Shown: in pieces, positions 9,505 through 64,000 of the stretch
Numbering within the stretch: position 1 is the stretch's first letter
Layout: each line of letters opens with the position of its first letter
Assembly: GCF_013031355.1 (NCBI RefSeq)
Contig: NZ_WPZO01000002.1
Location: forward strand, 496,001-560,000
DNA length: 64,000 nt
Source of the DNA: Ruegeria arenilitoris
GTDB taxonomy: Bacteria; Pseudomonadota; Alphaproteobacteria; Rhodobacterales; Rhodobacteraceae
Direction: 5' to 3'
The notes under the pieces: generated by a model
The model's database searches: none
What the model was told of the DNA's origin: nothing
The model's input: only the letters and a program-made list of their open reading frames with translations
Translations under genes and position numbers: made by a program

Positions 9505-10861
9505 CATTTTTTCAGGCGCCCCGTTCCGGACAGCTTGCTACGCTGCGCTGGTGGTCTGGATCATCACTGCCATTTTCGGGTACGCGGCTTATCTGGCGCT
9601 AGAAGATCGGCTCCGCCTTAACCTCGAGCAACAAATCCTTGAAGAAGAGCTTCTGCTTCATGAGATACTGTTGGACGGTGGCGCAGACGCAGTTCAGCGG
9701 GCAATTGAACACCTAAACAGTCCCAATCGATCCGGGCTTCACATGATCGCGCTGTTTGACAAACACAATTCGGCACTTGCCGGATCTGTCGCGAAAGTAC
9801 CCGACACAAATGGCTGGCATGAGGTGGATCCGGATTTCGTGGCGACGGGTGGGGCTGCTCCTGTCTATCTGCTTCATGCGTCCGACTACCTTGGTTATCG
9901 CACGGTGGTCGCCCGCAGCCTGACATCACTCAATCAAGCTTTGACGACGCTTTGGGAAGGATTGTTGCTATTGACTCTGGCGACGACCGCCACCGTTTTG
10001 GGGTTGGGATACTACGTCAGTTCGCAAAGCTATCGCAAACTCCAGCGGATTGAGCGAACCCTTGATCTTGTCTCACAAGGGGACACAGACATTCGCTTGC
10101 CCGTTTCAGAAGCAAACGATCAGATTGATCGGGTTTCCCGTTTGATAAACCGGCATCTCGACCGGCTGTCGAGTCTGCTCATCAGCACGCAGACAACCGC
10201 CGTCACAATTGCCCATGACCTGAAGACGCCGTTATCCCATGGTTTTTTGGCATTGCAGCAGGTCTATAGCGAAGTCGATTATGGCGGCGACCCGCGTCCA
10301 AAGCTTTACGAACTGGAAAGCGAACTGAAACGTCTCAGCGCTGTCTTCGACACGATCCTGAGAATTTCTCGTATCGAGACTGGCGGGTACAAGAACCACT
10401 TTGCGACAGTAAACCTGAGCGCAATCGTCGAGGACATTGTCGAAACCTTCTATCCAGTTGCGATAGACGAGGATAAACACATCTCGGCAGAGTGTAACGC
10501 CGATACGGTATTGATCCGTGGCGATGAAAACATGCTGAAGCAGCTGCTCGTCAATCTTGTAAATAACTCACTCCGGTATTGCCCATCAGGTTCTTGGATC
10601 AAGATTACCCTGATGGCCAAATCCGATTGCGTCGAGCTTGTCGTGGAAGACAATGGACCGGGAGTTCCCCCATCACAAATCAGCAAGGTCTTTGACGCAT
10701 TCTTCAGGGCAGACAGCACCAAAAACGAAGCGGGAAACGGGCTTGGCTTATCCCTCGTAAAGGCGGTTGCAGTACGGCATGGGGCAATAGTCGTCGCGGA
10801 GGACAATGAACCAGGTTTGAGGGTTTGCGTGAGCTTTGGAACTACCCCCGCGGCCGCTTGA
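9491..10861 (+). CDS. Membrane sensor histidine kinase
   Basis: Predicted to be 456 residues from ATG 9491. It has a membrane helix at about 14-34, a periplasmic sensor region of roughly 120 residues, a second helix at about 155-175, a HAMP-like linker, then the H-box with His242 (IAHDLKTPLS). The ATPase domain has an N-box (LLVNLVNNSLRY, about 352-363), G1 (EDNGPG, 386-391) and G2 (GNGLGL, 415-420). All catalytic elements are intact. It overlaps the response regulator gene, its obvious partner. The ligand is unknown; the small secreted protein encoded 88 bases downstream may be an accessory sensor or a target. Confidence 0.93.
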   Translation: MDRASIFSGAPFRTACYAALVVWIITAIFGYAAYLALEDRLRLNLEQQILEEELLLHEILLDGGADAVQRAIEHLNSPNRSGLHMIALFDKHNSALAGSVAKVPDTNGWHEVDPDFVATGGAAPVYLLHASDYLGYRTVVARSLTSLNQALTTLWEGLLLLTLATTATVLGLGYYVSSQSYRKLQRIERTLDLVSQGDTDIRLPVSEANDQIDRVSRLINRHLDRLSSLLISTQTTAVTIAHDLKTPLSHGFLALQQVYSEVDYGGDPRPKLYELESELKRLSAVFDTILRISRIETGGYKNHFATVNLSAIVEDIVETFYPVAIDEDKHISAECNADTVLIRGDENMLKQLLVNLVNNSLRYCPSGSWIKITLMAKSDCVELVVEDNGPGVPPSQISKVFDAFFRADSTKNEAGNGLGLSLVKAVAVRHGAIVVAEDNEPGLRVCVSFGTTPAAA

Positions 10862-10949
10862 GTACACGTAAGAAGAACACTTCACACCACCCCTTGGGTC
10901 CATCCGCTTGCTGGATCACTCAAACCCAAAAAAACGAGGAAACAAAAAG

Positions 10950-11270
10950 ATGAATAAAGCCGTAATCTTGATAGCAATCATATCTGCATCTACGGCCACT
11001 GCCGAGGAAACTGAATTCAGATGCACATCGGATGTATCCGGAGAGGAGCTTCAGGTTTTTCGGAACGGAGACCTCTCAGAAGCGCGTATGATTGTTCAGG
11101 GAACAGAAGGCACAGCCTCCGTTGCACACGGCCTTGATGGGTTGACTTTCATCCACATCAAACCCGACGAAGTCTGGACGCTGGTCCTCCATTTTCCAAC
11201 CATGACCTACGAATTATCCACCCATGGAGCGACTGCCATCGAAGATCACGGACACTGTGAAAAAGGTTAA
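10950..11270 (+). CDS. Small secreted periplasmic protein
   Basis: A product of 106 residues. ATG 10950 has GAGGA at 10936-10940. A signal peptide is clear (MNKAVILIAIISASTATA, cleavage likely after residue 18). The mature part has two cysteines (FRCTSD and HGHCEKG), which could form a disulfide joining the two ends, and is rich in beta-type sequence. No known domain recognised. It follows the two-component genes in the same direction and may be regulated by, or sensed with, them. Confidence 0.75.
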   Translation: MNKAVILIAIISASTATAEETEFRCTSDVSGEELQVFRNGDLSEARMIVQGTEGTASVAHGLDGLTFIHIKPDEVWTLVLHFPTMTYELSTHGATAIEDHGHCEKG

Positions 11271-11498
11271 TTGCAACCTCGGCTTGCTCACGATTTGAGA
11301 GATAGACAGGTTGAAATATTTCTAAAATGTAAACTCGATGAAAATTCTGTGAGAGTTCTGTCACTCACATTGGGCACATCGTTCGAGTTAGTTCAATATA
11401 CTTGGTCAAGGAAGCTTTCGTACCCCCTCCGAAAAGGTGTCACCGGCACCGTGAAGACGCGGGCCACTCACTCGTAAGCAAGCTTTCCTCGGCCAAAT

Positions 11499-11547
11499 GC
11501 AGCGCCCACCCTTATAACACCAAAATCCTCTAAAAGGGGGGCGCTGC
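11499..11547. terminator. Strong hairpin between convergent genes, probable bidirectional terminator
   Basis: GCAGCGCCC (11499-11507) pairs with GGGCGCTGC (11539-11547), extended by CCCTT/AAGGG after a one-base bulge, giving a stem of about 14 pairs. It lies in the 389-base gap between the two-component operon and the convergent trkH gene. Runs are A-rich on one side and TATTTT on the other. The remainder of the gap shows nothing else. Confidence 0.6.
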
Positions 11548-11659
11548 TATTTTACCAGAAAATGCCCGATGCCCTATTGGAAGCTCTGACACAAAGGCTC
11601 TCGACCCATTCATTGTATTGGTTGTTGCGCAACGTATCTCTGGTTGATGCTTCAACCCG

Positions 11660-13111
11660 TTACCACTGATCCCAAAATCGTCGAGTGAACATCACATACA
11701 ATGAAAGCAATTCCAGACGCCCTGCGATCATACCAAATATCATGATCCACTTGGCGGCTTGACTAAAGTGTTCGAGTGAGCCTGAGCTTTCCACCTTTGG
11801 GCCAAAAGCAGGACCAATATTAGCTACAGCAGTCCAGGCCGAAGTGAAGGAGGTCTCGATTGTCAGGCCGGTCAACGAAAGCGCAGCAGCAACGAACCAC
11901 ACAGTCGCCGCAAAGAGAGTCATAAATGTCCCAACAGAGTCGACTACATCTTTTGAGAGCTTCTTCCCGCTATACATTGGTTGGCTAACAACGTTCGGAT
12001 AGCGCACCTGCTTGATCCGGGTTGCTATCGCCGCCAAGCTCACCTGCCACCGAAATATCTTGACCGAGCAGGCTGTAGAGCCGGTACAACCTCCCAGAAA
12101 TCCAGCGACCAATACGAGCGTTAGAGCGAAACTTCCCCATTGAGAGATATCTTCGCTAGCGTACCCAGTGCCTGAAATAACCGAAACTACATTAAACAAC
12201 GACTCGCGTACGATTTCAAAAAACGGCTCGTCACTCGTCGCCGTCCGAAAAGCTACTAAGACTGTGACCAGGGCAAGTATCGCCAGGAAGTATCCTCTAA
12301 CTTGCGGGTCATTCAATAAAGGTTGGGCGTTCCCTCTCGCCAACTGAACGAAACGTACAAGCGGTAAACTAGCGGCGAGCATGAAAATGATGCAGGCGTA
12401 TTCCAGCGCTCCTTCAAACCGTATGAAGGATTGATCTGTTGTTGAAAACCCGCCTGTCGAAATCGTTGTCATGGCATGAACGACAGCGTCCAATGCCGAC
12501 ATTCCCATTGCGGCGTAAGCAGCCGCACAAATCACAGTGAAACAGATGTAAATCGCCAGCAGTGACTTGGCGATGTCCAGCGTACGAGGGAGTAGTTTGC
12601 CCTGCGTATCAAATCCTTCAGTCAAAAAAAACTGCATGCCACCGACACGCATCATCGGTAAGAAAATCATTGCAACAATGACGATACCAAGCCCGCCTAG
12701 CCATTGAAGAATACCTCTCCACAGCTGAATCCCTGGTGGCAGAGAGCTAAGGTTATGAAATACCGTTGAACCAGTTGTGGTCATACCTGAAACGGCTTCG
12801 AAATAGGCGTCGGTTATCCCAGCGTGCTGTATGCCAAGAAATAAGGGAACTGCACCAAACATCGGTAGCGCGACCCAAACCACTGCAGTCAACGCGTAGG
12901 CTTGGTTGCGGTTTATGGTGGTGATTTCAGGTCGCGACGTGGCTATAGCGAGAAGCAATCCCGTGGACGCAATTGCGAGACCGCTTTTGGTCAGCGTACT
13001 GATCGGCGAGAAATCAAAGTGCTGGTCCACGAGCCCGCAAAGGATCATCAGGCACCCCATGCAGCTGGCGAGAAGCGAGGTAATGTGGATGATTGGAGTG
13101 ACTTTCGGCAT
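11660..13111 (-). CDS. trkH: TrkH-family potassium uptake channel subunit
   Basis: A protein of 483 residues from ATG 13111; an in-frame ATG at 13159 is the alternative. The four pore loops of the SKT fold are visible: SGMTTTGSTVF, TTISTGGFST, SVISGTGYAS and VANIGPAFG, each with the selectivity-filter glycine. About ten membrane helices flank them. TrkH works with a cytoplasmic NAD-binding TrkA subunit; no trkA gene is adjacent, so that partner must be elsewhere. It is transcribed alone, convergent with the two-component operon. Confidence 0.93.
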   Translation of the reverse strand: MPKVTPIIHITSLLASCMGCLMILCGLVDQHFDFSPISTLTKSGLAIASTGLLLAIATSRPEITTINRNQAYALTAVVWVALPMFGAVPLFLGIQHAGITDAYFEAVSGMTTTGSTVFHNLSSLPPGIQLWRGILQWLGGLGIVIVAMIFLPMMRVGGMQFFLTEGFDTQGKLLPRTLDIAKSLLAIYICFTVICAAAYAAMGMSALDAVVHAMTTISTGGFSTTDQSFIRFEGALEYACIIFMLAASLPLVRFVQLARGNAQPLLNDPQVRGYFLAILALVTVLVAFRTATSDEPFFEIVRESLFNVVSVISGTGYASEDISQWGSFALTLVLVAGFLGGCTGSTACSVKIFRWQVSLAAIATRIKQVRYPNVVSQPMYSGKKLSKDVVDSVGTFMTLFAATVWFVAAALSLTGLTIETSFTSAWTAVANIGPAFGPKVESSGSLEHFSQAAKWIMIFGMIAGRLELLSLYVMFTRRFWDQW

Positions 13112-51625: not shown

Positions 51626-53062
51626 TCAGTCATTGGGTGGTTCGTAGGGATCAGGCGTTCCCGGGGGGATCGGAGGAAACTCCTCGAATGTAGCGAGATG
51701 CTCCTGTAACTGCGGCAACGCCTTTTCGGCCGCCCAAGTATGTGGGAAGAGCACGCTTTCGCGCTCATGGGGATCGTTCAGAAGGTTGTAGACCCTTGGT
51801 GTGTCGAAAGATTCCGTCGCACCAAAAGCCGTTGTGTTCTCTTTGAACAGAACTTTCCAGTCCTTCCATTTTACACCGAATATCTGTTCGCCCATATAAA
51901 CGATCACGCCTTCTCGGTTCGATGTCGGTTGGACGCCCAGAAAGAACTCGGACTGGTCAATGCCATCAAAAGCCCGGTCTTCCGGCACTTTGCCGCCTGC
52001 GAATGCCGCCAGTGTTGGATAAAGGTCCATCGAGTGAACAACGTCATTGCTTTCTAAACCCGCGGGAATCTTCCCCGGCCACTTGATGGCGAAGGGCACG
52101 CGCATGCTTCCTTCGAGGCTGGTGAACAGAGTGCCGCGCCAAGGCCCGGCTGTACCATGTACCGCAGGAACCGGCGAGACGTTGGCGTTTCCAACCGGAA
52201 GAGCTTCGGGGCCGTTGTCAGCAGTAAATATCACCACGGTGTCGTCGGAAACGCCTGCCGCCTCAATCGCATCAACGATGCGTCCGATATAGCTATCTGT
52301 TTGAAGTAGAATGTCGGCCCAGACGCCGTTTCCAGTAGCGCCATCAAATTCTTCGGACACGATGTTTGGATAGTGGGTCTGCGTGTATGCAAGATAGATG
52401 AAGAATGGTGCATCTTCCCCACTCTTGGCTTCGATGAAATCGATGGCTTTCTTTGTTAGGTCGCCATCTATCTCACCGCGATAATCCAGATCATAGTCGC
52501 GTGCTACTGTCGCCGGTTCGCCCGCAACACCCTGCATCACAACCGGTTCTTCCATGTCGGCTTCGGCAAAGCCTGGAAGCGAGCGCCAGACTGTGACATC
52601 AGTGGTCTCAACACCGTAGAACTCGTCGAAGCCTTGGCTGGTTGGATAGCGCCCCTCGGTCCAACCAAGGTGCCACTTGCCGTACATGGCCGTGTTATAC
52701 CCTACTTCCTTGAGCATCTCGGCCATTGTGATCTCCCACTGGGTCAGACCGTAGACGCCACCTCCAAGTGGGACTGTATGGTTGCCACTCCGAATGCCGT
52801 AACGACCGGTCATAGTCGCCGCACGGGAGGGAGTGCACTGGCTTTCAACGTTGAAGTTCGTAAGCCTTAAGCCCTCAGCGGCCAGTGCGTCCATTTCCGG
52901 AGTGGCCGCGCCACGAATTATTCCACCGCCATTGAACCCTGGCTCACCCCATCCAAAATTATCGAGAAATATGAAGACAATATTGGGCTTGTCCTGAGCT
53001 GAGGCGACAGTGCCTATTAGAAGAGATAGCAACAGTAGAAATGTTCGCGAAAACCGCTTCAT
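51626..53062 (-). CDS. Periplasmic arylsulfatase (CTPSR type)
   Basis: A 478-residue sulfatase with a signal peptide (MKRFSRTFLLLLSLLIGTVASA). ATG 53062 has GGGAG upstream. The formylglycine site is Cys76 in CTPSR followed by AATMTGR. The first metal pair is Asp34-Asn35 (IFLDNFGWGE) where most relatives have two Asp. Further blocks GKWHLGW and FTADNGPE complete the site. It is monocistronic and lacks an adjacent regulator, and differs in length and motif from the sulfatase at 23.1 kb, so the two are not recent duplicates. Confidence 0.94.
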   Translation of the reverse strand: MKRFSRTFLLLLSLLIGTVASAQDKPNIVFIFLDNFGWGEPGFNGGGIIRGAATPEMDALAAEGLRLTNFNVESQCTPSRAATMTGRYGIRSGNHTVPLGGGVYGLTQWEITMAEMLKEVGYNTAMYGKWHLGWTEGRYPTSQGFDEFYGVETTDVTVWRSLPGFAEADMEEPVVMQGVAGEPATVARDYDLDYRGEIDGDLTKKAIDFIEAKSGEDAPFFIYLAYTQTHYPNIVSEEFDGATGNGVWADILLQTDSYIGRIVDAIEAAGVSDDTVVIFTADNGPEALPVGNANVSPVPAVHGTAGPWRGTLFTSLEGSMRVPFAIKWPGKIPAGLESNDVVHSMDLYPTLAAFAGGKVPEDRAFDGIDQSEFFLGVQPTSNREGVIVYMGEQIFGVKWKDWKVLFKENTTAFGATESFDTPRVYNLLNDPHERESVLFPHTWAAEKALPQLQEHLATFEEFPPIPPGTPDPYEPPND

Positions 53063-53981
53063 GACAACGCTCCCAACAAATATCATTCGTTCGAGACTGG
53101 CGAAAAAGGGTGCCGGCGGTCAAGAATGAACGGTTTGTATGGGCTCTTTCCGGACTTCGGAGGCGTTGCAGCATCCATGTCCTAGGAACCATCCGGCGCC
53201 GACAAAGACGGCCCAAAACTGTCATTGACCTGTAGCCTACGATGCTGCGGTGTGGCTCACCGAACCCGCCATTCGCTGCGCGAGCTAGGCCCGGAGTCTC
53301 TTGAACTCGCTCTGCAGTTCGCTGCTAGTCCGTAAGCTGGAAGCATGGCGCACGTGGGGGGGTAGGGACCTGGAAAAGCGAATACTATACGCCTGTCCTG
53401 TTTGAGTTGTGTCAAAAGATCAAATCGAACCGCTACGGGGAATCCCCAATATCGTGGCCACACCTCGTTTGTTAGGTTTGAGTTAACGGAGCTACCACAC
53501 ACAACTCCGAGACCCCCGAGGTTGAGGGGCTGGCTTTACCCCCTCGTCCAGCCCCTCGCTCTGTCCATTACCTCAATGTTGATAGAACAGTCAGATCCGG
53601 CTTTCGGCGGCAGCGTGGTTCAAGTGCATCCTGTTTACCAACTTGGGTAACTTCGATGCCACATTCATGCAGCAGGCCTTCTACATTTCGAAGAGACAGA
53701 GGAAACCGAATGCACAGCGTCACCGGCAAATGGAAGATTTCGGGACAGGCATTGAAGTATTTGAACAGCGACTTTTTTGATCATGGGTAGAGGTACGACA
53801 GCCCCTCGCCCGCCTAAACCCAACTTCTTCTTACAAGACCCTATTGCTGATGCAAATGTATGGCGCAGAGCAATAGATTGCCGAGAAGACGGCGTGAGCA
53901 GCACTCTCGCTAGAATGGCTCTACTTCAACAGAAACGCATCAATCGAAACACCGCTTTTGGCGGTGATTGACGAAAAGGAG
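53063..53981. other. Long intergenic region, mostly unexplained
   Basis: Over 900 bases without a supported gene. A repeat-like patch lies near 53140-53215 (GCGTTGCAGCATCCATGTCC). A strong hairpin is at 53524-53557. A plus-strand frame at 53777-53971 begins with a plausible ATG but has no family similarity or coding bias I can see. Confidence 0.4.
53524..53557. other. Perfect 10-bp inverted repeat, role unclear
   Basis: GAGGGGCTGG (53524-53533) pairs with CCAGCCCCTC (53548-53557), loop of 14 bases that is itself C-rich (CTTTACCCCCTCGT). There is no T run and no nearby gene end, so it is not an obvious terminator. A further CAGCCCCTCG occurs at about 53799. Confidence 0.45.
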
Positions 53982-54337: not shown

Positions 54338-57300
54338 TCAGGAACTTTTGCGAAACATTCTGTTTTTCTCAATTATCTCGTCAAGTGCCGCGCGCGCATC
54401 CGGCAACACCGCAGTGAAGCGCACCATAAAACAACCATCGTCGTGATGCTGGTCCATTACTTTAGCATAAAGCGTCAGATTGCTGTCAGACCCGCCTTGC
54501 CACTTGATCTGGAGCTGAAGATCACTGAAAGGCTTTGGTGCTGTCTCGGATTGTATGCACGCTGCGACGGGGGAAAGCTTCAGAAGCTGGCCGTGCTGCG
54601 CCATACCCACAACCTGTTTACCGACAACCGCTCTGTACGAGAGCGCAACGGGCAAATTTATGTCTGCCATCTCCACAGATTGCGATGAAAGGGTGATCGC
54701 ATAGGTGCCCCCCATGCCAAGCAATTCATAAATCTTCAAAGGATCGCCAGAACCTTTGGGTTCAACCGTGCGCATCGCTCCTAGTTCAATAGGCGTTTTG
54801 ACGGCTTCGCGCGTACTATCTGCGATCAGTATCTGGCCACCGACAGTGTAGCTTTCGATCCTTGCAGCCAGGTTGGTTGTTCTACCCACAACGCTATACT
54901 TGGCGCGTTTATCAGAACCGATATTGCCAACGACGACTTCACCCGTGTTCAGACCGATGCCCATCTCGATTTCCGGGAAGCCGTTTCTGGTATTCCATTC
55001 GTTAACCCAACCCATCCGTTGCTGCATTTCCAGCGCACAGGCCAAAGCGCGGTCAGCATCGTCGGGCCGTTGCAAGGGTGCGCCAAACACCACCAAGATC
55101 GCGTCGCCAATGAAGGCATCAATTGTGCCATTGTATTTCTGGATGACGTTGGTCATTTCGCTGAGATATGTATTCAGCATTGCCACGATGCTTTCCGGCG
55201 GCAACTCGTCAGAGAGGGTCGAGAACCCCCGCAGATCTGACATCAACATGGTAACCGTGGTTTTCTTCCCGCTGAAGTCCACTCCATCCGCCGATTTCAA
55301 CAACTGGTCCACAACTTCCGTGGCAAGAAACTGACCGAACGTCTGTTCAAGAAATTTTGCGTGAACCTCAAGCTGCTCGGTTCGCTCGCGAACTTTTTCT
55401 TCCAGATGTTCAACGATCTCAGCATTGCGCATTGAAACGGCAATCTGTCCTGACAGCAGCGACAGCAGTTGCGCTCGTTCCGGTTTGAAGGCCGAACTCA
55501 CCAGGTTGTTTTCCAGATAGACCAGGCCAATCAATTCGTTCAGGTGGAGGATAGGCTGACACAGAACGGCACGCGTTTCGTTTTGCTGAACGTAGGGGTC
55601 AACCATGAAGCGCTCGTCAAGCTGAGCGTCGTCCACCAGAACGACCTCGTGCGTTCGCGCTGTGAAATTGATTACGCTGGTCGGGAGAATTCTCGATCCT
55701 TGGTCGGAATCGAGAGGAACGGGATGCTGGAATGTACCAACCTCGGATGTAACGCTGACCTCTGTCTCGATCATCAGTTCGTCGCCATGTGCAAGCAAAA
55801 GCACGCCGCGTTGAGCACCGGCGTTTTCGATCAGAATTCCAAGCAACCGATCCAGAAGCCGACCCTGTACCACTTCCGCTGAGATCGCCTGAGCCGCTTT
55901 CAGCAGCGTATTCAGGTCAAGGTCCTGTCCCAGAAATAGATTGGTCGTTTTTTCGGTAGTTGAGGTCAGGCTTTCAGTGATCTGTTGCGTGGTTGCGCGA
56001 CGATCACGATGTTCGGTGAGGAGTTGCGGGAACTCCAGTTCCAACTCCTCCACTTTGCGATGCGCGCCCCACAAACGGTAGGCATGCCGCGCATCGCGTA
56101 GGTACATCGAACCGATCCGAGCACTGGGGCGCCGCTCAATCACGTGTCGCGCGGCCAGTTCACACGCCAGAGCCTCATCCTGTAGAAACCGACCCTTCTG
56201 TGCTGCATCAATGGCCGCGTCCAACAGGTCCAGCACATCCGCATCATTGCCGTTCAGGCGCGCAATTTCCGCCCTTACCATAAGGGTTTTAGCCAGGAAG
56301 TTGTCCGGACCGGACTCCGCCCATTGGTTCAGCCTTTCGTGATTTGCTTCCAGACGGCTTTGCATATCGGGATCGGGCTCGCCATCCCGAAGAAGCGCGG
56401 CGATCGAAAGCGATTGATAGAGAAGGTGGTCGGCAAGGCAGGGATGGTTGACGACAAAGCTGAGGATCGGCTCCACCAAACGCGTCTCAGCAAGTGCTTC
56501 TTGCGGTCGTCCGAACACATAAAGGGCTTGGGCTTTTAGAATTCTATGGAAACAGATGGCCATGGACATCTGGTTCTCTTCACACCCGGCCAGAAATGTT
56601 GCTTCGTCCAGATCTTCGGTGGAAAAATCAGTGCTGGATTGCGTTCGTCCCGCCAGCGTTGAAAGCACCAGCCGATACGCGTTAATACCAGCAGCAGCAC
56701 CATGGTTTTGAGCGCGTTGGATAGTGTCCAACTGGGCTGGCATCGCATCCAGTACGTCTTCAAGCGGTTTGCCCGCGAAGCTGTCAATCACGACGCGATA
56801 CATTACCAGATAACCCGCCCATAGAATGTCGCCTGAATCCATCCCCTCGCGGTAACCCCGTTCGATCACGGGTATCGCATTACGTACATGTTGCACCCAC
56901 GGGATAAGCTCCACCCCGGTTACCAGGCACACAGTTGCTGTCGGGGCACGTGCACCAAACTTGTCGCACAGCCGCAAGGACAGCTCACCGAAAGCCGCAC
57001 CCTCGCGGTACTTGCCCATGAACGCGCCGATGATCAGGCCGAAATTGGCGAAAAACAGTGCAGATTCCGGCGCGTTACCGTGCTTCAAAGACAATTGTAC
57101 CGAGGTGCCGACAATCAGCGGGAAAAGCTCTTGGTTGTTCAGGAACGCTGCGATGGTCAGATGCCGCAAGCAGCGTTGCGCCAGCGCGATTTCAGGGCTG
57201 TCGACGTCTGCATTGTCAAAAAGCGCCGCCGGGTTTGTGGCCCCAAGCATCGCCGCAGCCTGGCCGATCGCGTTTTGGCCGGCTTCCTCCAGATTGTCGA

Positions 57301-59899
57301 GGCTCATCTGGACGCCGACAAGCTCCAGGGCCTTGATACCAGCATCAATGGCTTCGTCGAATTCCATCAGCAAAGTATGCTGCGCAATACGCGTGAAGTA
57401 GATTTCCGCCCTTTCAAGGTCAGTTCGTGCGTGTGCCAACGTTGTGGCCACAATTTCGGTGCATCGCTCGAAATTGCCGGTCAAGTATTCGAGCGCTGCG
57501 GACAGGCGCTGAGCTTCAAACATCAGCTCATAGTTTTCGTCCCAGCCGTCCGGACCCAAAAGCTCTGACGCGACGTTAACGAAAGACAGCGCGGCCTCAT
57601 AGGCAGCCGAGTCAAAAGCCCTGCGTGCGGCAATCAGGTCAAGATGCGCAAGATCGAGCTGCTCGGCACGGTCTTCCATTCTGTCCCGCCCGATGTTGAG
57701 TTGGTCGACAACTTCAAAAATTCGGTCATTCAACTCTTCCCTTGTCAACCGGGCTCTGAGCTGGCGCCCAATGGCAAGATGGACGCTGTGACGATCAGTG
57801 TCGATTAGATCATAGGCCGCCTGCTGAATACGGTCATGTTGGAACTCAAAGTCCCGCACGACAAGCGGGGACAAGACGTTATCCGTCTCTGTCACGACCA
57901 GATCAGAGAGCGGCTGGATCATCTCTTGCTGAATGGCCGGCAGCAGGCATTCGAACGCTTCCTCAGGTTCGATTTTCAAGATCAGCGCGAGTGTGTCGAT
58001 GTCAAAACGGTTGCCCATACAGGACGCAGTTTGCAGGACGGATTGTGTGCCCTGCTCCAACCTGCGCAGTTTTTCCAACAAAAGGTCGACCACATTGTCG
58101 GTGATCTGTACCGCGCGGATCGCCTGAATATCCCATGTCCATTTCGTGGATATGTTGGAGTCTATTGTCTTTTGTACAATCAGCTTTTCGCGATGCAGGT
58201 CCATCAGAAACTGCCGTGTAAAAAGCGGGTTGCCTTGGGTCTTTTGCACCACGAGTTGCGCCAGCTCGACCACCTGTGAAGCGTCCGAATGAAACGTGTC
58301 CGCAATCAAATTTACGATATCGGGCACACCCAGCGGGGCGAGCGATAAATTGGACAGACGCCCCCCAGCCTCCCGCACCGTTTCAAGTGCCCGCGACATG
58401 GGATGCATCGCGTCCACTTCGTTGCTGCGATACGATCCGATCAAAAGCAGCCGCCCAATCTGATCGTCGGTCAAAACAACCTTCAAAAGCCCCAACGTCG
58501 CGCCGTCGGCCCATTGTAGATCATCCAGAAACAGGACGACAACACGGTCGTGCGCACAAAGCGCGCGCAAAAAACGGCGAACGGTTTGGTTGAACCTGTT
58601 CATGGCCTCTGTGGCGTCCAGCTCTGGTGCAGCAGGCTGCGGCCCGATGATCAACTCAAGTTCCGGCACAACATCCAGAAGGACCGATGCGTTCGGCGTC
58701 AAAGCGTCATTGAGTTCCTTGCGCCAGGTCGCGTGACGCGTCTGGCTTTCAGTAAGCAATTGCCGTACCAGGTCCTGCAGGGCGACCGTAAGGCCCGAAT
58801 ATGGGTCGTTTTTCTTGAACTGCTCGAACTTACCTTTGATGAAATAGCCACGCGCCCGGGTGATCGGTTTATGAACTTCGTTCACCAGAGCAGTCTTTCC
58901 GACACCTGAAGTGCCGGACACCAGCATCATCTCGGCTGGTCCATGACGTACCCTTTCAAATGCTTCGAGCAATATGTGCACTTCGTGATCGCGACCATAC
59001 AGCCGTTCAGGGACCGTAAAACGCTCAGCACGATCCTTGAGACCCGGTACAAACCGGTCGAGATCGACGCCAAGCCGTACGGCTTCAAGGTCTGCAATGA
59101 TGCCAAGAGCGCTTTGATAGCGATCTTCAGCCTTTTTGGCCATCATTCGCTGGACAATCCTGGACAGCGCTGGCGATACGTCCGGGTTTCGCCTATGGGC
59201 CGGAACAGGTTCGCGAGCGACGTGGCAGTGTACAAGCTCCAGTTTGTCGTCAACCTCGAAAGGCGGCACACCTGTGAGCATCTCGTAGAAGGTCGCGCCC
59301 ATCGAATAGAAGTCAGTGCGATGGTCAAGCGTTCGATTCATGCGCCCGGTTTGTTCGGGCGAAATATAGGGCAAACTGCCTTCCAGAACCTCGGGACTTT
59401 TCAGAATCGGGTGCTCGGTCGAAAACTGCGTTGCGATCCCGAAGTCAATTAGTTTCACCTCGCCAGTTCCCGGATTGATGAGAACGTTTTGAGGCGAAAT
59501 ATCCTTGTGGATCACGCGCGCCTGATGAATGCCGTCAACAGAGCGGGCAATCTGAATAGCAGTCTCAAGGAATTCTTCGTGTGAGAGCGCTCGGGACGAC
59601 AACAGATCCGCAACAGAGATTCCCTCGAAGTCCTCCAGAACTATCATGAGCGACTTGTCATGGCGCTGTAAGTCCAGAGCTTTGATCACGCCCGGTAGGT
59701 TCAGGCCGCTGGTAATCTCGAACTCGCTGCGGAAGCGCGCAAGCCTGCTGGCACTGGGAAAATCGCTTTTGAGGATTTTTATGACAACGCGTTCACCATC
59801 AGAGTTGCGCGTTGCGCGGAACACGAACGAATTGGTGCTTTCATAGAGAGTCTCGGACAATTGGAAGCCAGGAACAAAAGACGTCTGTACGTTAGCCAT
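54338..59899 (-). CDS. Giant Ser/Thr kinase - AAA ATPase - GAF - nucleotide cyclase signalling protein (TOMM-type kinase/cyclase fusion)
   Basis: A 1853-residue protein from ATG 59899, overlapping the halogenase stop by eight bases. Domains in order: protein kinase 8-275 (Lys41, catalytic HKD at 131-133, DFG at 152-154); AAA/STAND-like ATPase about 300-560 (Walker A GTSGVGKT 329-336, Walker B LFLDD 456-460); long helical-repeat region 700-1300; GAF about 1340-1490; coiled coil 1495-1520; class III cyclase about 1547-1725 (metal Asp1555 in SDLRGF, Asp1599 in GDAILVVFGAP); and a PilZ-like tail about 1745-1840. Catalytic residues are present throughout. Kinase/cyclase fusions are known from TOMM gene clusters, which agrees with the YcaO gene in this operon. 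Signal, targets and which cyclic nucleotide is made are unknown. Confidence 0.9.
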   Translation of the reverse strand: MANVQTSFVPGFQLSETLYESTNSFVFRATRNSDGERVVIKILKSDFPSASRLARFRSEFEITSGLNLPGVIKALDLQRHDKSLMIVLEDFEGISVADLLSSRALSHEEFLETAIQIARSVDGIHQARVIHKDISPQNVLINPGTGEVKLIDFGIATQFSTEHPILKSPEVLEGSLPYISPEQTGRMNRTLDHRTDFYSMGATFYEMLTGVPPFEVDDKLELVHCHVAREPVPAHRRNPDVSPALSRIVQRMMAKKAEDRYQSALGIIADLEAVRLGVDLDRFVPGLKDRAERFTVPERLYGRDHEVHILLEAFERVRHGPAEMMLVSGTSGVGKTALVNEVHKPITRARGYFIKGKFEQFKKNDPYSGLTVALQDLVRQLLTESQTRHATWRKELNDALTPNASVLLDVVPELELIIGPQPAAPELDATEAMNRFNQTVRRFLRALCAHDRVVVLFLDDLQWADGATLGLLKVVLTDDQIGRLLLIGSYRSNEVDAMHPMSRALETVREAGGRLSNLSLAPLGVPDIVNLIADTFHSDASQVVELAQLVVQKTQGNPLFTRQFLMDLHREKLIVQKTIDSNISTKWTWDIQAIRAVQITDNVVDLLLEKLRRLEQGTQSVLQTASCMGNRFDIDTLALILKIEPEEAFECLLPAIQQEMIQPLSDLVVTETDNVLSPLVVRDFEFQHDRIQQAAYDLIDTDRHSVHLAIGRQLRARLTREELNDRIFEVVDQLNIGRDRMEDRAEQLDLAHLDLIAARRAFDSAAYEAALSFVNVASELLGPDGWDENYELMFEAQRLSAALEYLTGNFERCTEIVATTLAHARTDLERAEIYFTRIAQHTLLMEFDEAIDAGIKALELVGVQMSLDNLEEAGQNAIGQAAAMLGATNPAALFDNADVDSPEIALAQRCLRHLTIAAFLNNQELFPLIVGTSVQLSLKHGNAPESALFFANFGLIIGAFMGKYREGAAFGELSLRLCDKFGARAPTATVCLVTGVELIPWVQHVRNAIPVIERGYREGMDSGDILWAGYLVMYRVVIDSFAGKPLEDVLDAMPAQLDTIQRAQNHGAAAGINAYRLVLSTLAGRTQSSTDFSTEDLDEATFLAGCEENQMSMAICFHRILKAQALYVFGRPQEALAETRLVEPILSFVVNHPCLADHLLYQSLSIAALLRDGEPDPDMQSRLEANHERLNQWAESGPDNFLAKTLMVRAEIARLNGNDADVLDLLDAAIDAAQKGRFLQDEALACELAARHVIERRPSARIGSMYLRDARHAYRLWGAHRKVEELELEFPQLLTEHRDRRATTQQITESLTSTTEKTTNLFLGQDLDLNTLLKAAQAISAEVVQGRLLDRLLGILIENAGAQRGVLLLAHGDELMIETEVSVTSEVGTFQHPVPLDSDQGSRILPTSVINFTARTHEVVLVDDAQLDERFMVDPYVQQNETRAVLCQPILHLNELIGLVYLENNLVSSAFKPERAQLLSLLSGQIAVSMRNAEIVEHLEEKVRERTEQLEVHAKFLEQTFGQFLATEVVDQLLKSADGVDFSGKKTTVTMLMSDLRGFSTLSDELPPESIVAMLNTYLSEMTNVIQKYNGTIDAFIGDAILVVFGAPLQRPDDADRALACALEMQQRMGWVNEWNTRNGFPEIEMGIGLNTGEVVVGNIGSDKRAKYSVVGRTTNLAARIESYTVGGQILIADSTREAVKTPIELGAMRTVEPKGSGDPLKIYELLGMGGTYAITLSSQSVEMADINLPVALSYRAVVGKQVVGMAQHGQLLKLSPVAACIQSETAPKPFSDLQLQIKWQGGSDSNLTLYAKVMDQHHDDGCFMVRFTAVLPDARAALDEIIEKNRMFRKSS

Positions 59900-61205
59900 T
59901 TGCGCTGTCACCCACCGACATTTTGTTTGCACTATAGTATCCTATACCATGGCCGACTTGTGCAAAATTGAGTTCCGAAAAGTTGCCAAACGGGATGAAT
60001 TTCGTCAGCTTCGGCAGTATTTCCCGTTCCCACTTTTCCTGTTCTGTACAGGTCCCGATTTCTGTGCCGGGCAAGTCGCGCCCAACATCCAGAAAATCGG
60101 TCATCGCATTCATATGGCCCGCCAAGTAGTCATGCCCGCGCGCGCGCTCAAGACTGCGGGACGCCAAGTTCCAGAACGGACTGTCCCATCGCGATCCACG
60201 CGCGTAGTGCCAGGTAATAAACAGTGAGTTACGCAGGACATAAGAGCGCATAGTCCGGTTTGCGTGTTCCACGGCACCCACGTCCGGCGCGCTTTGCGGG
60301 TGGTGATCCGTCATCCAGCGCTGCGCGATGCGGACTTGCATGATCGTGGCACCGATGGCCGTGGCCTCAAGTGGTTCGACGAATGACGCGGCATTGCCAA
60401 TGGTGAAAATACGACCATCAAACCAGTTGCGGCGCATGAAGTTCGGAAAACTCACGCGAACACGGATTTCCGTTGGTTCGACCTGCTCTTCTTTGAGAAA
60501 AACATCGAAATCCGCCAGAACGTCTTCGTCGCTGCTGAGTGAAGGATTGAAGACATACCCGCAGGAGGTCCAGTCCCGCAGTGGGATTTGGAATATCCAC
60601 CCATGTGGTCGGGCGACTAAACGGGACATGCTGGTTTCGGTACTGGGGGGCAGACGGCGCACCATCGCGCGGCCCGTAGGTATCCAATCCATGCGAATGA
60701 TCTCGGGATCTTCTGGTGCTTGCGTCCAAGCCCCCGCAGGAAATCCCCTCGCGTCCAACACATAGTCGCAGTCCAGTTGACTGCCGTCCTCAAAACCGAT
60801 GGTTACGCCACCGGGCAGAGCCTCTAGGGACACAACGCGGGCATCAAGCTGCTTTGCCCGCACATGATCACTGATAATCCCTGTCACACGACCGGCGTCA
60901 AAGTGGTATCCGAAAAGACGCGGTGGCTGAAACCTGTTCACGAAATCCGTGCTATGTGATCCCCATCCTTCATAGTGTGATCCAAGCTTTACTGTCGCGC
61001 CACAACGCGCGCGCAGTTCGTCTGGTCCGATGCCTGTGACCTCGTCCAGCCACAAAGGAAAGCGTGGTGTTGTTCCTTCTCCGACACCGATTGTCGGGAT
61101 GCGGGAATCGTAAATGTGCCACAGCTCAGCCTTCGGGAAATAGCGAGTCATGTGGGCTGCAGCAATGAAACCGGCCGTTCCGCCGCCCAATACAGCAATT
61201 TTCAT
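59892..61205 (-). CDS. Flavin-dependent tryptophan-halogenase-family enzyme
   Basis: A 437-residue protein. It begins MKIAVLGGGTAGFIAA, the FAD-binding loop (GxGxxG). The block CGATVKLGSHYEGWG contains the Lys of halogenases that forms the chloramine or relays HOCl (PrnA Lys79 position). The family motif WxWxIP appears as GWIFQIPL, with Phe in place of the second Trp. FVEPLEATAIGATIM corresponds to the conserved segment near PrnA Glu346. It needs FADH2 from a reductase. It overlaps both neighbours (four bases with the oxidoreductase gene upstream, eight with the kinase gene), so it is part of the YcaO operon and may chlorinate or brominate a peptide residue. Confidence 0.9.
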   Translation of the reverse strand: MKIAVLGGGTAGFIAAAHMTRYFPKAELWHIYDSRIPTIGVGEGTTPRFPLWLDEVTGIGPDELRARCGATVKLGSHYEGWGSHSTDFVNRFQPPRLFGYHFDAGRVTGIISDHVRAKQLDARVVSLEALPGGVTIGFEDGSQLDCDYVLDARGFPAGAWTQAPEDPEIIRMDWIPTGRAMVRRLPPSTETSMSRLVARPHGWIFQIPLRDWTSCGYVFNPSLSSDEDVLADFDVFLKEEQVEPTEIRVRVSFPNFMRRNWFDGRIFTIGNAASFVEPLEATAIGATIMQVRIAQRWMTDHHPQSAPDVGAVEHANRTMRSYVLRNSLFITWHYARGSRWDSPFWNLASRSLERARGHDYLAGHMNAMTDFLDVGRDLPGTEIGTCTEQEKWEREILPKLTKFIPFGNFSELNFAQVGHGIGYYSANKMSVGDSANG

Positions 61206-62521
61206 GAAACAGCCTCATTTGTTAAGGTTTCCGGTGTGCGCAGCATATGCTGGAGTTCCAACAACATTATGGCCAAAGAAGGATCAAAAGGGGCAGCCCG
61301 TGTAAGGCTGTTGATTTGATCCGCCAAACCGGGTTGCGACGCGGCCGTTGTCCAATCGTTCGTTGCGATCATCCAGGGCAACTGGTTATGCTGGGCAAGT
61401 TGGGACTGGAAGCGGCTTGCCGTGTTGGTTGTGATACGGTCTGGCTGATCCAGATAACCTTGCAGCAACTGAACACCTCGGGCTGCCGCCGTCATACCCA
61501 GCCCGGCATAGGGGTCAAGCGCACAGACGCTGTCACCAATTGCAAACAGATTGTCTGGCCAGAAAGAGTATTGTTCGTAGTGTCGACGGCGATTTGCGGT
61601 GCGACCAAACAGATGCGGGGGCGTCACCGGCACTGCGCGTTTAAGTACGTCATAAAATTCTGCGGCTGGTAGCATCGCCGCCGACGCAAGAAAGGTCTCG
61701 TCATTGGTCGGCAATGGGACATCTTCGGGAGATTGCAGCACAACCCCCCACAGATCGTTCTCTGCCCGCATCATCATTCCTGCACGTCCATGGATCGGCG
61801 CCAACGCAAGGCCTTGCCATTTCGGAGTTTGATCTGGTGCCAGCCGCACCCAACGTGAAACATATTGCCGACCCGGTGCGATTTCGGTCCGGGCGATCTG
61901 CTGCCGCTCACCATAAACTTGGGCAAGCCAGCGTGGCAGACGCGAGGCGGCACCGCTGGCATCCACGACCACATCAGCATTGTTCAAAACTTGTAAAGCG
62001 CCGTTGGTCGACTGAAACCTTACACCACATACGCTTTCGCCATCCCGCGAGACCTCAAGCCCGACGACGCGCTGGACCGTTTGAATCGTCACATTGCGGG
62101 CTTCGCGTAACACTGCTAGCAGCGCGTTTTCGATGAGCCCGCGAGAAGCGCCATAAAGGGTTATGCCAGTTTCAACCTTCGGCAACCACCCTGAGGCCAC
62201 CCGCATTGCAACATCTGCACCCGCGTCATAAGCCACCGCGCCTCGTGCAATCATTTCGTCGCGCCAACCCGGAACCAGTTCGTCAAAAGCTTGGGCGCCA
62301 GCTCCCATCAACATGTGCAGGCAGTGGCTTTGCGGCACTTCGGGGCGGATTGCGGGTGCGCCATCCGAAGGTTCCACGTAATTTGACCGTTCCAGAACCG
62401 TAACTTTGACAAAACGGTCCTTTAGCATGTTTGCACAAAGCAGTCCCGCAATACCCCCACCAATGACAAGCGCTTGGGCGCCTTTCATTCGTGGCTTAGC
62501 TGGCTGTGGAACGGCTGGCAT
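61202..62521 (-). CDS. FAD-dependent oxidoreductase / monooxygenase
   Basis: A 439-residue protein from ATG 62521 (GTG 62527 and ATG 62488 are alternatives). The FAD loop is ALVIGGGIAGLLCANML, the DG-type block is VVDASGAASRLPRWL, and the second FAD motif is FAIGDSVCALDPYAGLGMTAAARG. This is the group that includes aromatic hydroxylases, geranylgeranyl-type reductases and halogenase relatives. It lacks the halogenase WxWxIP and Lys motifs. It overlaps the halogenase gene by four bases (ATGA). It may oxidise the RiPP product or serve a paired step with the halogenase. Confidence 0.87.
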   Translation of the reverse strand: MPAVPQPAKPRMKGAQALVIGGGIAGLLCANMLKDRFVKVTVLERSNYVEPSDGAPAIRPEVPQSHCLHMLMGAGAQAFDELVPGWRDEMIARGAVAYDAGADVAMRVASGWLPKVETGITLYGASRGLIENALLAVLREARNVTIQTVQRVVGLEVSRDGESVCGVRFQSTNGALQVLNNADVVVDASGAASRLPRWLAQVYGERQQIARTEIAPGRQYVSRWVRLAPDQTPKWQGLALAPIHGRAGMMMRAENDLWGVVLQSPEDVPLPTNDETFLASAAMLPAAEFYDVLKRAVPVTPPHLFGRTANRRRHYEQYSFWPDNLFAIGDSVCALDPYAGLGMTAAARGVQLLQGYLDQPDRITTNTASRFQSQLAQHNQLPWMIATNDWTTAASQPGLADQINSLTRAAPFDPSLAIMLLELQHMLRTPETLTNEAVS

Positions 62522-62532
62522 TTGCACGGGGG

Positions 62533-63051
62533 TCAGAACGCGTTTTCGGGGACGTCGTAGGAAATTCGCTCAAAGGTTTGCGAGACGACAAATTGGAAAC
62601 CGTCTGTCCTTCCTTCTGCATCGCGGGGAACGAATGGACCGATTATCCGGCGCTGATTGGGATTGAGGAAATACTGATTGTTGTAGTAGTCCCCGGTCGG
62701 GAAGTTCAAATGAAACAGGTAGGTTCCGGGGGAACTCTCGACACCGTGGACTTTGATGTCACCGGTGATCGACTCGCAGGACTTGCCGTCGACTTGCAGT
62801 TCAAACTCACGCAGCACAAACAGATCTTTAAGCGCCTTACCATGTTCGTGCTCTTGTATCAGTTCGTCCAGGCTTCCAAGGTCTTCCTGCCTGTAGTGCA
62901 TTACTTTCCCGGTTTCTTTCCAATCGATCGTTAGGATACTGGGTCCGGTGTAGAGGTACTTCCCCTTGTTGTCATAAACGATTGAATGACCAGTCCACAT
63001 TCCAATCATGATGTCGAATGGACGGGCATAGTCGAAATAGCTGCTAGTCAT
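62533..63051 (-). CDS. Unrecognised 172-residue protein of the YcaO operon
   Basis: ATG 63051 is chosen for GTGAGGAAC just upstream. The protein is hydrophilic, with no signal peptide or membrane helix, and rich in aromatic and beta-type sequence (MWTGHSIVYDNKGKYLYTGP, VMHYRQEDLGSLDELIQEHE, SPGTYLFHLNFPTGDYYNNQ). An N-terminal GxWxG...YD..G pattern resembles lipocalin or calycin-like barrels that bind small hydrophobic ligands, but this is a weak comparison. It lies 23 bases after the YcaO gene and 11 before the oxidoreductase, so it is surely part of the pathway. No cysteine- or serine-rich core is seen, so it is not an evident precursor peptide. Confidence 0.75.
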   Translation of the reverse strand: MTSSYFDYARPFDIMIGMWTGHSIVYDNKGKYLYTGPSILTIDWKETGKVMHYRQEDLGSLDELIQEHEHGKALKDLFVLREFELQVDGKSCESITGDIKVHGVESSPGTYLFHLNFPTGDYYNNQYFLNPNQRRIIGPFVPRDAEGRTDGFQFVVSQTFERISYDVPENAF

Positions 63052-63074
63052 CTGGGGGTTCCTCACTCAATGAG

Positions 63075-64000
63075 TCAAAATTGTATCACGTGGGGGTTCA
63101 GGTCTTGCTCACGGGTTGGCGTAGAAAGCCATCCCTGACGCACGGGTACGTCATAAAGGCGCCCTGGGCCAAACCGGGCCCAGAAATGGCGCAAGCCCGG
63201 AGCCACAACGCGCACCACTGGAAAATTCACATCTGGCCGAGTCTGGTCGAGAACAAAGACATCAATGCCATTGTCTTTTAAGCGCGATACGCAGGCTTCG
63301 ATATCCGAGAGAATGTCGCCACTTGCCAGACTTTCGCTTTCATCCAGCTTTAGCATCGGTTGCCTGGTGTCGGGCACAAGATAATCGGCTTTGGAAAGGC
63401 GTGTTGTTCGCCACCAACTTATCGCTTCGGAACTGCCAAGATGAGTCGTGTCGACGGCCGTACCGCCTGTTTTTGGAACGGCTTCCAGAGATTGATTAAT
63501 TTCCGTAAGTGCCCGCGACAGAGCCACCTCGGGATCGAGATGACAGCCAAACCCGTAAATAATGTCTTCTTCAGACTTGTCTATTCTGCCCGAAATGGCC
63601 GCAAAGGTAGGTATGCCAATGTCGCTTGTTACGTCTATCACCCGCAGGCTTCTGTTTAGTTTCTTGTAATGCAACGATAAATCGCGCCCATATGTGTCGC
63701 TGGAACTTGCTATATCGACACCAGGGCGGATTAGCCGGTTGTACCACCAAATCGCGACCGCATCTCTTTCAATCAGCTCCAGCAAACCCTGCAGAATAGC
63801 TTCTTCCAGTGTGCCGCCAGCGGCGCAGCCGTTGGAATCCGCACGTCCATAGGTGGAGCCGGTGCCTTGATAGCCGAAATAGCACATTGATGTCGGCAGG
63901 TATCGCATGGTGTCATCACTCAGCGACCAAAGCGGTGTCCATTCGATTTCGGCTTCCCGGTCAAATGGCTCCGGCACCCAGTATGCTTTGTGGTCTTTGC
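63075..64000 (-). CDS. YcaO-domain cyclodehydratase (TOMM/RiPP type), N-terminus beyond window
   Basis: The frame is open to position 64000, reading ...KDHKAYWVPEPFDREAEIEW, so the start is outside. YcaO landmarks: SNGCAAGGTLEEAILQGLLE and LIERDA form the ATP/Mg-binding signature (SNGxAxGxxxxEAxxxGLxExxERDA), and DPEVALSRALTEINQS is the second part of the nucleotide site. The C-terminus is NPHVIQF, comparable to the proline-rich ends of azoline-forming YcaO proteins. Such enzymes phosphorylate a peptide amide oxygen to make thiazoline or oxazoline rings on Cys/Ser/Thr. It heads the visible operon; a leader-binding E1-like domain or protein and the precursor should lie to the right. Confidence 0.92.
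   Translation of the reverse strand, partial: KDHKAYWVPEPFDREAEIEWTPLWSLSDDTMRYLPTSMCYFGYQGTGSTYGRADSNGCAAGGTLEEAILQGLLELIERDAVAIWWYNRLIRPGVDIASSSDTYGRDLSLHYKKLNRSLRVIDVTSDIGIPTFAAISGRIDKSEEDIIYGFGCHLDPEVALSRALTEINQSLEAVPKTGGTAVDTTHLGSSEAISWWRTTRLSKADYLVPDTRQPMLKLDESESLASGDILSDIEACVSRLKDNGIDVFVLDQTRPDVNFPVVRVVAPGLRHFWARFGPGRLYDVPVRQGWLSTPTREQDLNPHVIQF

Follow-up and report, generated by a model that had tools for sequence, protein, structure and literature searches.

In the srp system of marine sponge microbiomes, the precursor SrpE has an LCCCW core in which SrpC cyclises the Cys residues and SrpI brominates the Trp (PMC10286304, PMC10858898). SrpI requires the Trp at or adjoining the C-terminus, a moved Trp not being modified (PMC10286304), and is inactivated by loss of Lys84 (PMC10858898), as the related MppI is by loss of Lys73 (PMC11791876). 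Flavin halogenases of ribosomally synthesized and post-translationally modified peptides (RiPPs) named in a 2025 review act on tryptophan (PMC12615548). A large Ser/Thr kinase beside the NHLP-Burk precursors of thiazole/oxazole-modified microcins (TOMMs) was noted in 2010 (PMC2887384). We analysed a 64,000-nucleotide stretch of the Ruegeria arenilitoris genome (NCBI RefSeq assembly GCF_013031355.1, contig NZ_WPZO01000002.1, positions 496,001 to 560,000; hereafter the window), at whose right end lie five minus-strand genes that an earlier note, made from the letters of the window, had read as a candidate TOMM/RiPP operon. These five genes are the downstream part of a cluster of eight, the rest of which lies past the window edge. 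This RiPP cluster is genuine and conserved; it is a variant of the srp type in which the halogenase stands without an evident substrate. The eight genes are given below; coordinates beyond the window are extrapolated from the stretch L003 (window coordinate = L003 position + 51999).

54338..59899, minus strand: giant signalling protein (Ser/Thr kinase, AAA_16 ATPase, GAF, guanylate/adenylate cyclase), 1853 aa from ATG
59892..61205, minus strand: SrpI-type flavin-dependent halogenase, 437 aa, Lys73 and Glu280 present
61202..62521, minus strand: flavin adenine dinucleotide (FAD)-dependent monooxygenase, closest relatives of solved structure MonCI and Lsd18/LasC
62533..63051, minus strand: 172-aa protein of no known family, 83-96% identity to its counterparts in two Ruegeria relatives, largely lost from the locus L040
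63075..64000, minus strand: in-window part of a fused leader-binding/E1-like and YcaO cyclodehydratase; whole gene 63075-65345 (L003:11076-13346), 756 aa
65360-65590, extrapolated (L003:13361-13591), minus strand: NHLP-like precursor, 76 aa, end AVAPPACC
65735-67090, extrapolated (L003:13736-15091), minus strand: cytochrome P450, PF00067 126 bits
67063-68382, extrapolated (L003:15064-16383), plus strand: SagB-type dehydrogenase, TIGR03605 112.7 bits, cut-off 78.4

Reading of the window confirmed the five minus-strand open reading frames (ORFs) at the positions first noted, and internal ATG starts reproduced their spacing: an 8-base overlap between the giant gene (from 59899) and the halogenase gene, a 4-base overlap of the halogenase and FAD genes (61202-61205), an 11-base gap before the FAD gene (from 62521), and a 23-base gap between the 172-aa protein gene (from 63051) and the YcaO gene. 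The ORF of the giant gene stays open up to a GTG at 59932. Profile searches returned the families that had been named, namely YcaO (PF02624, 8.1e-97), Trp_halogenase, FAD-dependent oxidoreductase and, with clear matches in the giant protein, Pkinase, AAA_16, GAF and Guanylate_cyc.

The in-window portion of the YcaO gene encodes only the C-terminal 307 aa. The whole product is one 756-aa protein that passes both TIGR03604 (272.7 bits, cut-off 219.25) and TIGR03882 (121.6 bits, cut-off 36.9), a SagD-type YcaO with its leader-binding/E1-like partner. The precursor gene, with a Cys-containing C-terminal core, sits 14 bases before it, and the SagB-type dehydrogenase gene is divergently oriented, its product scoring over the curated cut-off. 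With precursor, leader-binding domain and dehydrogenase adjoining and the SagD-type YcaO over its cut-offs, the TOMM/RiPP reading is supported. The earlier note had expected a precursor, an E1-like leader-binding gene, a dehydrogenase and a transporter to the right of 64000; the first three are there, and no transporter gene was seen within the eight-gene block. It had also held that a non-peptide role of the YcaO gene, or a failure of halogenase and YcaO to co-occur in related genomes, would speak against it. Neither was the case, because the missing TOMM parts lie next door and the halogenase and YcaO genes are found together in related genomes. The note's view of a halogenase with a YcaO enzyme as an undescribed combination is not supported, since srp, with SrpC as YcaO, SrpI as brominase and SrpE as precursor, had been published (PMC10286304, PMC10858898).

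We examined the precursor in the five Ruegeria genomes that carry the cluster. Its last eight residues, AVAPPACC, are identical in all five copies, with Cys only at positions 75 and 76 and Trp only at positions 9 and 17; none of the copies has a Trp at the C-terminus or elsewhere in the tail. A Gly-Gly or Ala-Gly cleavage site is likewise absent from all five, and an AG site is present in 9/9 srp-type precursors. The nitrile hydratase alpha profile TIGR01323 matched the precursor at 1.5e-5 and 24.7 bits, above its NHLP score. All 33 matches of the R. atlantica precursor to PDB sequences (E <= 1) were nitrile hydratase alpha or thiocyanate hydrolase gamma subunits, and its structural model (four sequences, mean pLDDT 77) contained three helices, a short fourth helix at 60-66 and a low-confidence tail at 70-76. 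The strict L(X)4L motif is absent from the Ruegeria precursors and likewise from seven precursors ending LCCCW, which carry I(X)4L, and was therefore not used as a difference; VHDDDL in the fourth helix (ASDDDL in ANG-S4) may correspond to it. Once small ORFs lying largely within larger ones were set aside, only the precursor, together with shadow ORFs overlapping it and its junction with YcaO, was common to at least three clusters. A second precursor at G000:C1 was rejected: the NHLP-profile matches there, the only others of that profile in the genome, fall within a nitrile hydratase alpha of 204 aa that bears CTLCSC.

The halogenase matched PF04820 (Trp_halogenase) at 9.4e-50, with 170.2 bits against a cut-off of 21. 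Five cluster enzymes, seven srp-type enzymes, two LanM-linked Ruegeria enzymes and the canonical enzyme of the same genome were aligned, and Lys73 and Glu280 were kept in 15/15; the cluster enzymes thus belong to the halogenase family with its catalytic Lys and Glu. Cluster Lys73 is taken for the equivalent of MppI Lys73 and SrpI Lys84, both proteins being outside the alignment. The five cluster halogenases formed a clade (support 0.81) beside the srp-type and LanM-linked peptide halogenases, their nearest relatives. The motif that we take to be WxWxIP in halogenases reads WxFxIP in the cluster enzymes, as it does in all nine srp-type and LanM-linked ('Trp-type') enzymes. Thirty-two columns (plus an end gap), including both neighbours of Lys73, were fixed in these nine and different in all five Ruegeria enzymes. 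In control comparisons, 29 columns separated the srp-type and 16 the LanM-linked enzymes, so the columns were rejected as proof of a new substrate; they show divergence, not a change of substrate. The halogenase had no match among plasmids at 1e-40, and at 1e-70 it was found in its own genome only among 398 genomes of the phylum.

Other halogenases and related loci were observed alongside. The same genome encodes a separate tryptophan halogenase of canonical length (G000:C12:70318-71688, L047; PF04820 437.6 bits). Two further Ruegeria genomes (G674, L065:20-9461; G687, L066:175-9773) hold a second kind of SrpI-like halogenase (39%) next to a LanM lanthipeptide synthetase (804.7 bits in L065) and ABC exporters, one of NHLM type over the cut-off. 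No precursor was found in these LanM-type loci.

We further compared the tails of related precursors. A class-wide search found a relative of the YcaO protein at 1e-40 in 16/385 genomes, own included; among the other 15, nine had an srp-type precursor and seven a halogenase. The best-scoring precursor ended in LCCCW in all seven halogenase genomes, on the same contig as the halogenase, and in RCCC (G576, L085) and LCCCF (G574, L086) in the two srp-type genomes without one. The association of Trp with halogenase gave a Fisher p = 0.028 with relatedness ignored, in fragmented genomes in which a gene may have been missed. The count uses one precursor per genome, weaker NHLP-like matches being mostly unread; one of these, in G651, ends GGSAGCM, without Trp. 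Left out of it were six genomes with YcaO relatives (G670, G606, G525, G663, G562 and G638), which had no halogenase at 1e-30 and no srp-type precursor (none at 0.01 in G670; best E 1.2e-7 or weaker in the others). Each of G576 and G574 is matched within its genus by Trp- and halogenase-bearing genomes (G653; G365 and G651), a pattern suggestive of two separate changes, and such pairs offer a natural comparison. The five Ruegeria clusters depart from this association. In one srp-type stretch, L026, a 433-aa protein (10506-11804) was seen with an NHLP-like leader at its start (41.3 bits) and no Pfam match over the rest, followed by a 372-aa ORF without a match (11910-13025).

Counted through the halogenase and then read, the block was present in 5/54 genomes of the genus: R. 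arenilitoris itself, R. atlantica HKCCD9103 (L039), a Ruegeria metagenome-assembled genome (L040), Ruegeria sp. ANG-S4 (L041) and L067. The identical eight genes in the same order were found in three of the other loci, and in the fourth, L040, with the 172/177-aa protein gene mostly missing. Across four loci (L067 left out; three loci for the 172/177-aa gene), pairwise ratios of nonsynonymous to synonymous substitution (dN/dS) were 0.02-0.26 overall, 0.02-0.08 for the precursor, 0.05-0.08 for the halogenase, 0.05-0.11 for the kinase/cyclase and up to 0.26 for SagB, values that are rough because many dS exceed 1. The block is under purifying selection in these four loci, and the recurrence of the same genes and order together with the low dN/dS indicates more than a chance neighbourhood. 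The flanking stretches covered (ORFs of at least 90 aa, E <= 1e-15) have only distant sulfatases in common, in three loci. These sulfatase genes (window 51626-53086; L039:4258-5802; L067:16974-18626) lie on different sides of the cluster in 3/5 loci, and their products share only 30-48% identity.

The NHLM peptidase-exporter profile scored 830-875 bits in 6/6 comparison genomes (four of the nine srp-type and the two LanM-type Ruegeria genomes). No NHLM-type exporter was found in the five cluster genomes, where the maximum was 337 bits, the level of ordinary ABC proteins, with 45 of 131-155 candidates scored per genome and one cluster genome 89% complete. Together with the strong conservation of the core, the missing cleavage site and exporter speak rather against a bacteriocin of the usual exported, hypervariable kind.

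The giant protein scored 181.5 bits in three stretches against the TOMM kinase/cyclase profile TIGR03903, and does not belong to that fusion family by its cut-off of 705.75. By eye, what we take to be the kinase Lys, HxDxxxxN and DFG motifs are present, as are presumably the metal Asp pair, Asn and Arg of the cyclase, with Ala in place of the presumed base-selecting Lys. Scoring no more than two candidates per listed genome, we found a relative at E <= 1e-100 in 2/196 genomes of the order, its own genome and one other at 27%; nine further Ruegeria genomes covered by this search yielded no relative, nor does any of them carry the halogenase. Kinase and cyclase matches of the giant protein in PADLOC (PD-T4-6, MADS6, Pycsar and others) fall within its kinase and cyclase regions in the 25 of 40 matches listed, and the six other proteins searched have none, so that a defence system is not favoured.

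We consider it likely that the eight genes form an NHLP-type (proteusin-like) cluster for a thiazole/oxazole-modified peptide, whose tail is modified by the SrpI-type enzyme under a kinase/cyclase regulator. The fused YcaO would bind the folded leader and cyclise Cys75 and Cys76 to thiazolines, which the SagB-type enzyme would oxidise to thiazoles; judged from the sequences, the last two Cys residues are probably turned into sulfur-containing rings. The SrpI-type flavoenzyme, a relative of SrpI with its action on the C-terminal residue, would target, by halogenation or oxidation, a site other than a tail Trp, most probably the modified Cys-Cys terminus or residues beside it. Both the P450 and the MonCI-like monooxygenase would tailor the same tail. 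The giant protein, which accompanies the cluster and had no relative in the nine further genomes of the genus searched, would be the dedicated regulator of the cluster and may sense the peptide product or its cue, as first proposed. The product would either be freed by an unlinked protease or remain a small modified protein with its leader attached.

Several observations weigh against this picture. The precursor scored 17.4 bits (E 0.003) against leader_NHLP (TIGR03793), below the cut-off of 50.9, and so is not an NHLP precursor by curated score. The 172/177-aa protein gene is mostly lost in L040. In 3/7 srp-type halogenase genomes (G651, G474 and G644) the YcaO gene found is on a different contig from the halogenase and precursor, and in G644 it is 39 kb or more away from the nearer end of its contig. 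Halogenation activity and its target are predicted, and at 32 columns against 29 the sequences alone give no proof of a substrate shift. The last point slightly lowered the probability that we assign to a tentative, rather unlikely extension of the picture, in which this peptide halogenase clade would have left tryptophan to act on a Cys-Cys bithiazol(in)e, and the product would stay on its nitrile hydratase-like leader, watched by the regulator, rather than serve as an exported antibiotic. If true, a RiPP heterocycle would itself be halogenated or oxidised, and the leader-bound product could be, for example, a metal- or redox-binding small protein. The catalytic residues kept beside a Trp-less tail in five genomes put the substrate question to a defined eight-gene set.

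Alternatively, the enzyme may have lost halogenation and hydroxylate the tail as a flavin monooxygenase directed at peptides. In NCBIfam it best matches the flavin-dependent monooxygenase QhpG (1.7e-8, 33.9 bits against a cut-off of 240), Phe replaces the second Trp of the usual halogenase motif, and the tail has no Trp. However, Lys73 and Glu280 persist in all five cluster enzymes, srp-type enzymes from genomes whose precursors end in LCCCW have the same Phe, and the PF04820 score is far above its cut-off; we regard a hydroxylase as unlikely. A halogenase directed at leader Trp9 or Trp17, the leader then not being removed, would fit the finding of both residues in 5/5 Ruegeria precursors and in none of the seven LCCCW leaders, and the failure to find a Gly-Gly site or NHLM exporter. 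Trp17, however, lies within the helix common to NHLP and nitrile hydratase and is also present in L042, and the demand of SrpI for a Trp at or adjoining the C-terminus, with a moved Trp left unmodified (PMC10286304), makes a leader target decidedly improbable.

The enzyme could also work in trans on another peptide, a small molecule or an amino acid that a peptide-aminoacyl-tRNA ligase attaches to the tail, given that the only NHLP-like precursor found has no tail Trp and that the genome holds other flavin enzymes matching the halogenase family. The block contains no other conserved small ORF, though, and we think work in trans very unlikely; a search for the ligase-type domain PF04738 gave no match in this genome, nor in control genomes. 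That the genes are chance neighbours rather than one pathway would accord with the rarity of the cluster in the genus, but the same genes and order in five loci, whose flanks share only distant sulfatases, leave this hardly credible.

The remaining proteins and the layout gave further observations. The 172/177-aa protein, unrecognised in the earlier note, is still without a known family, having no match in Pfam or NCBIfam (E <= 0.01), PDB sequences (E <= 1), PADLOC or plasmids; it was found in 2/292 genomes of the order (own and ANG-S4), and an AlphaFold model from three sequences was unusable (pLDDT 39). In L040 (12272-12546) only its last 37 residues were found, and the other seven genes over near-full length. 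The longest frames of the P450 and SagB genes overlap head to head by 28 bases (67063-67090; L003:15064-15091), which implies divergent promoters inside coding DNA or true starts further in. Between SagB and a PrkA-type kinase gene lie about 2.4 kb with a longest ORF of 145 aa, and promoter- and terminator-like sites showed no excess over shuffles. On contig 27 (L005:7762-10262) the genome has a second YcaO gene (280.5 bits), then a 432-aa ORF that we take to be TfuA and, further along, an ORF with SGARV repeats.

No report naming the Ruegeria cluster was found among titles and abstract beginnings in the open literature searched; a published network of 124 SrpI relatives (PMC11791876) may hold its enzymes unnamed. 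Among known systems, the NHLP-Burk TOMM loci likewise bring together a nitrile hydratase-like precursor, YcaO and a large kinase (PMC2887384), but the Ruegeria precursor scored 12.8 bits against TIGR03795 (cut-off 41) and the giant protein fell short of TIGR03903 as given above, and the words halogenase and P450 are absent from the available text of that report. MppI is an SrpI-like peptide halogenase with a catalytic Lys, whereas its cluster has LanM lanthionine chemistry and a Trp substrate in an ACWRWSG core (PMC11791876) and the Ruegeria cluster is of azoline type. Both Ruegeria flavoenzymes show distant similarity to the QhpG-type monooxygenase, which acts on a peptidyl Trp (halogenase 33.9 and FAD monooxygenase 31.9 bits, NCBIfam cut-off 240). 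The srp system was compared through srp-type relatives, SrpI and SrpC themselves being outside the alignments. The Ruegeria tail is PPACC in place of LCCCW, neither a Gly-Gly site nor an NHLM exporter was found, and the cluster adds SagB, P450, a second flavin monooxygenase, the 177-aa protein and the kinase/cyclase, five proteins for which tblastn gave no match in the srp-type stretches L026-L034. The two have in common an NHLP-type precursor with a Cys end, a fused YcaO (39-41% to srp-type relatives) and a peptide halogenase of the same family (36-42%).

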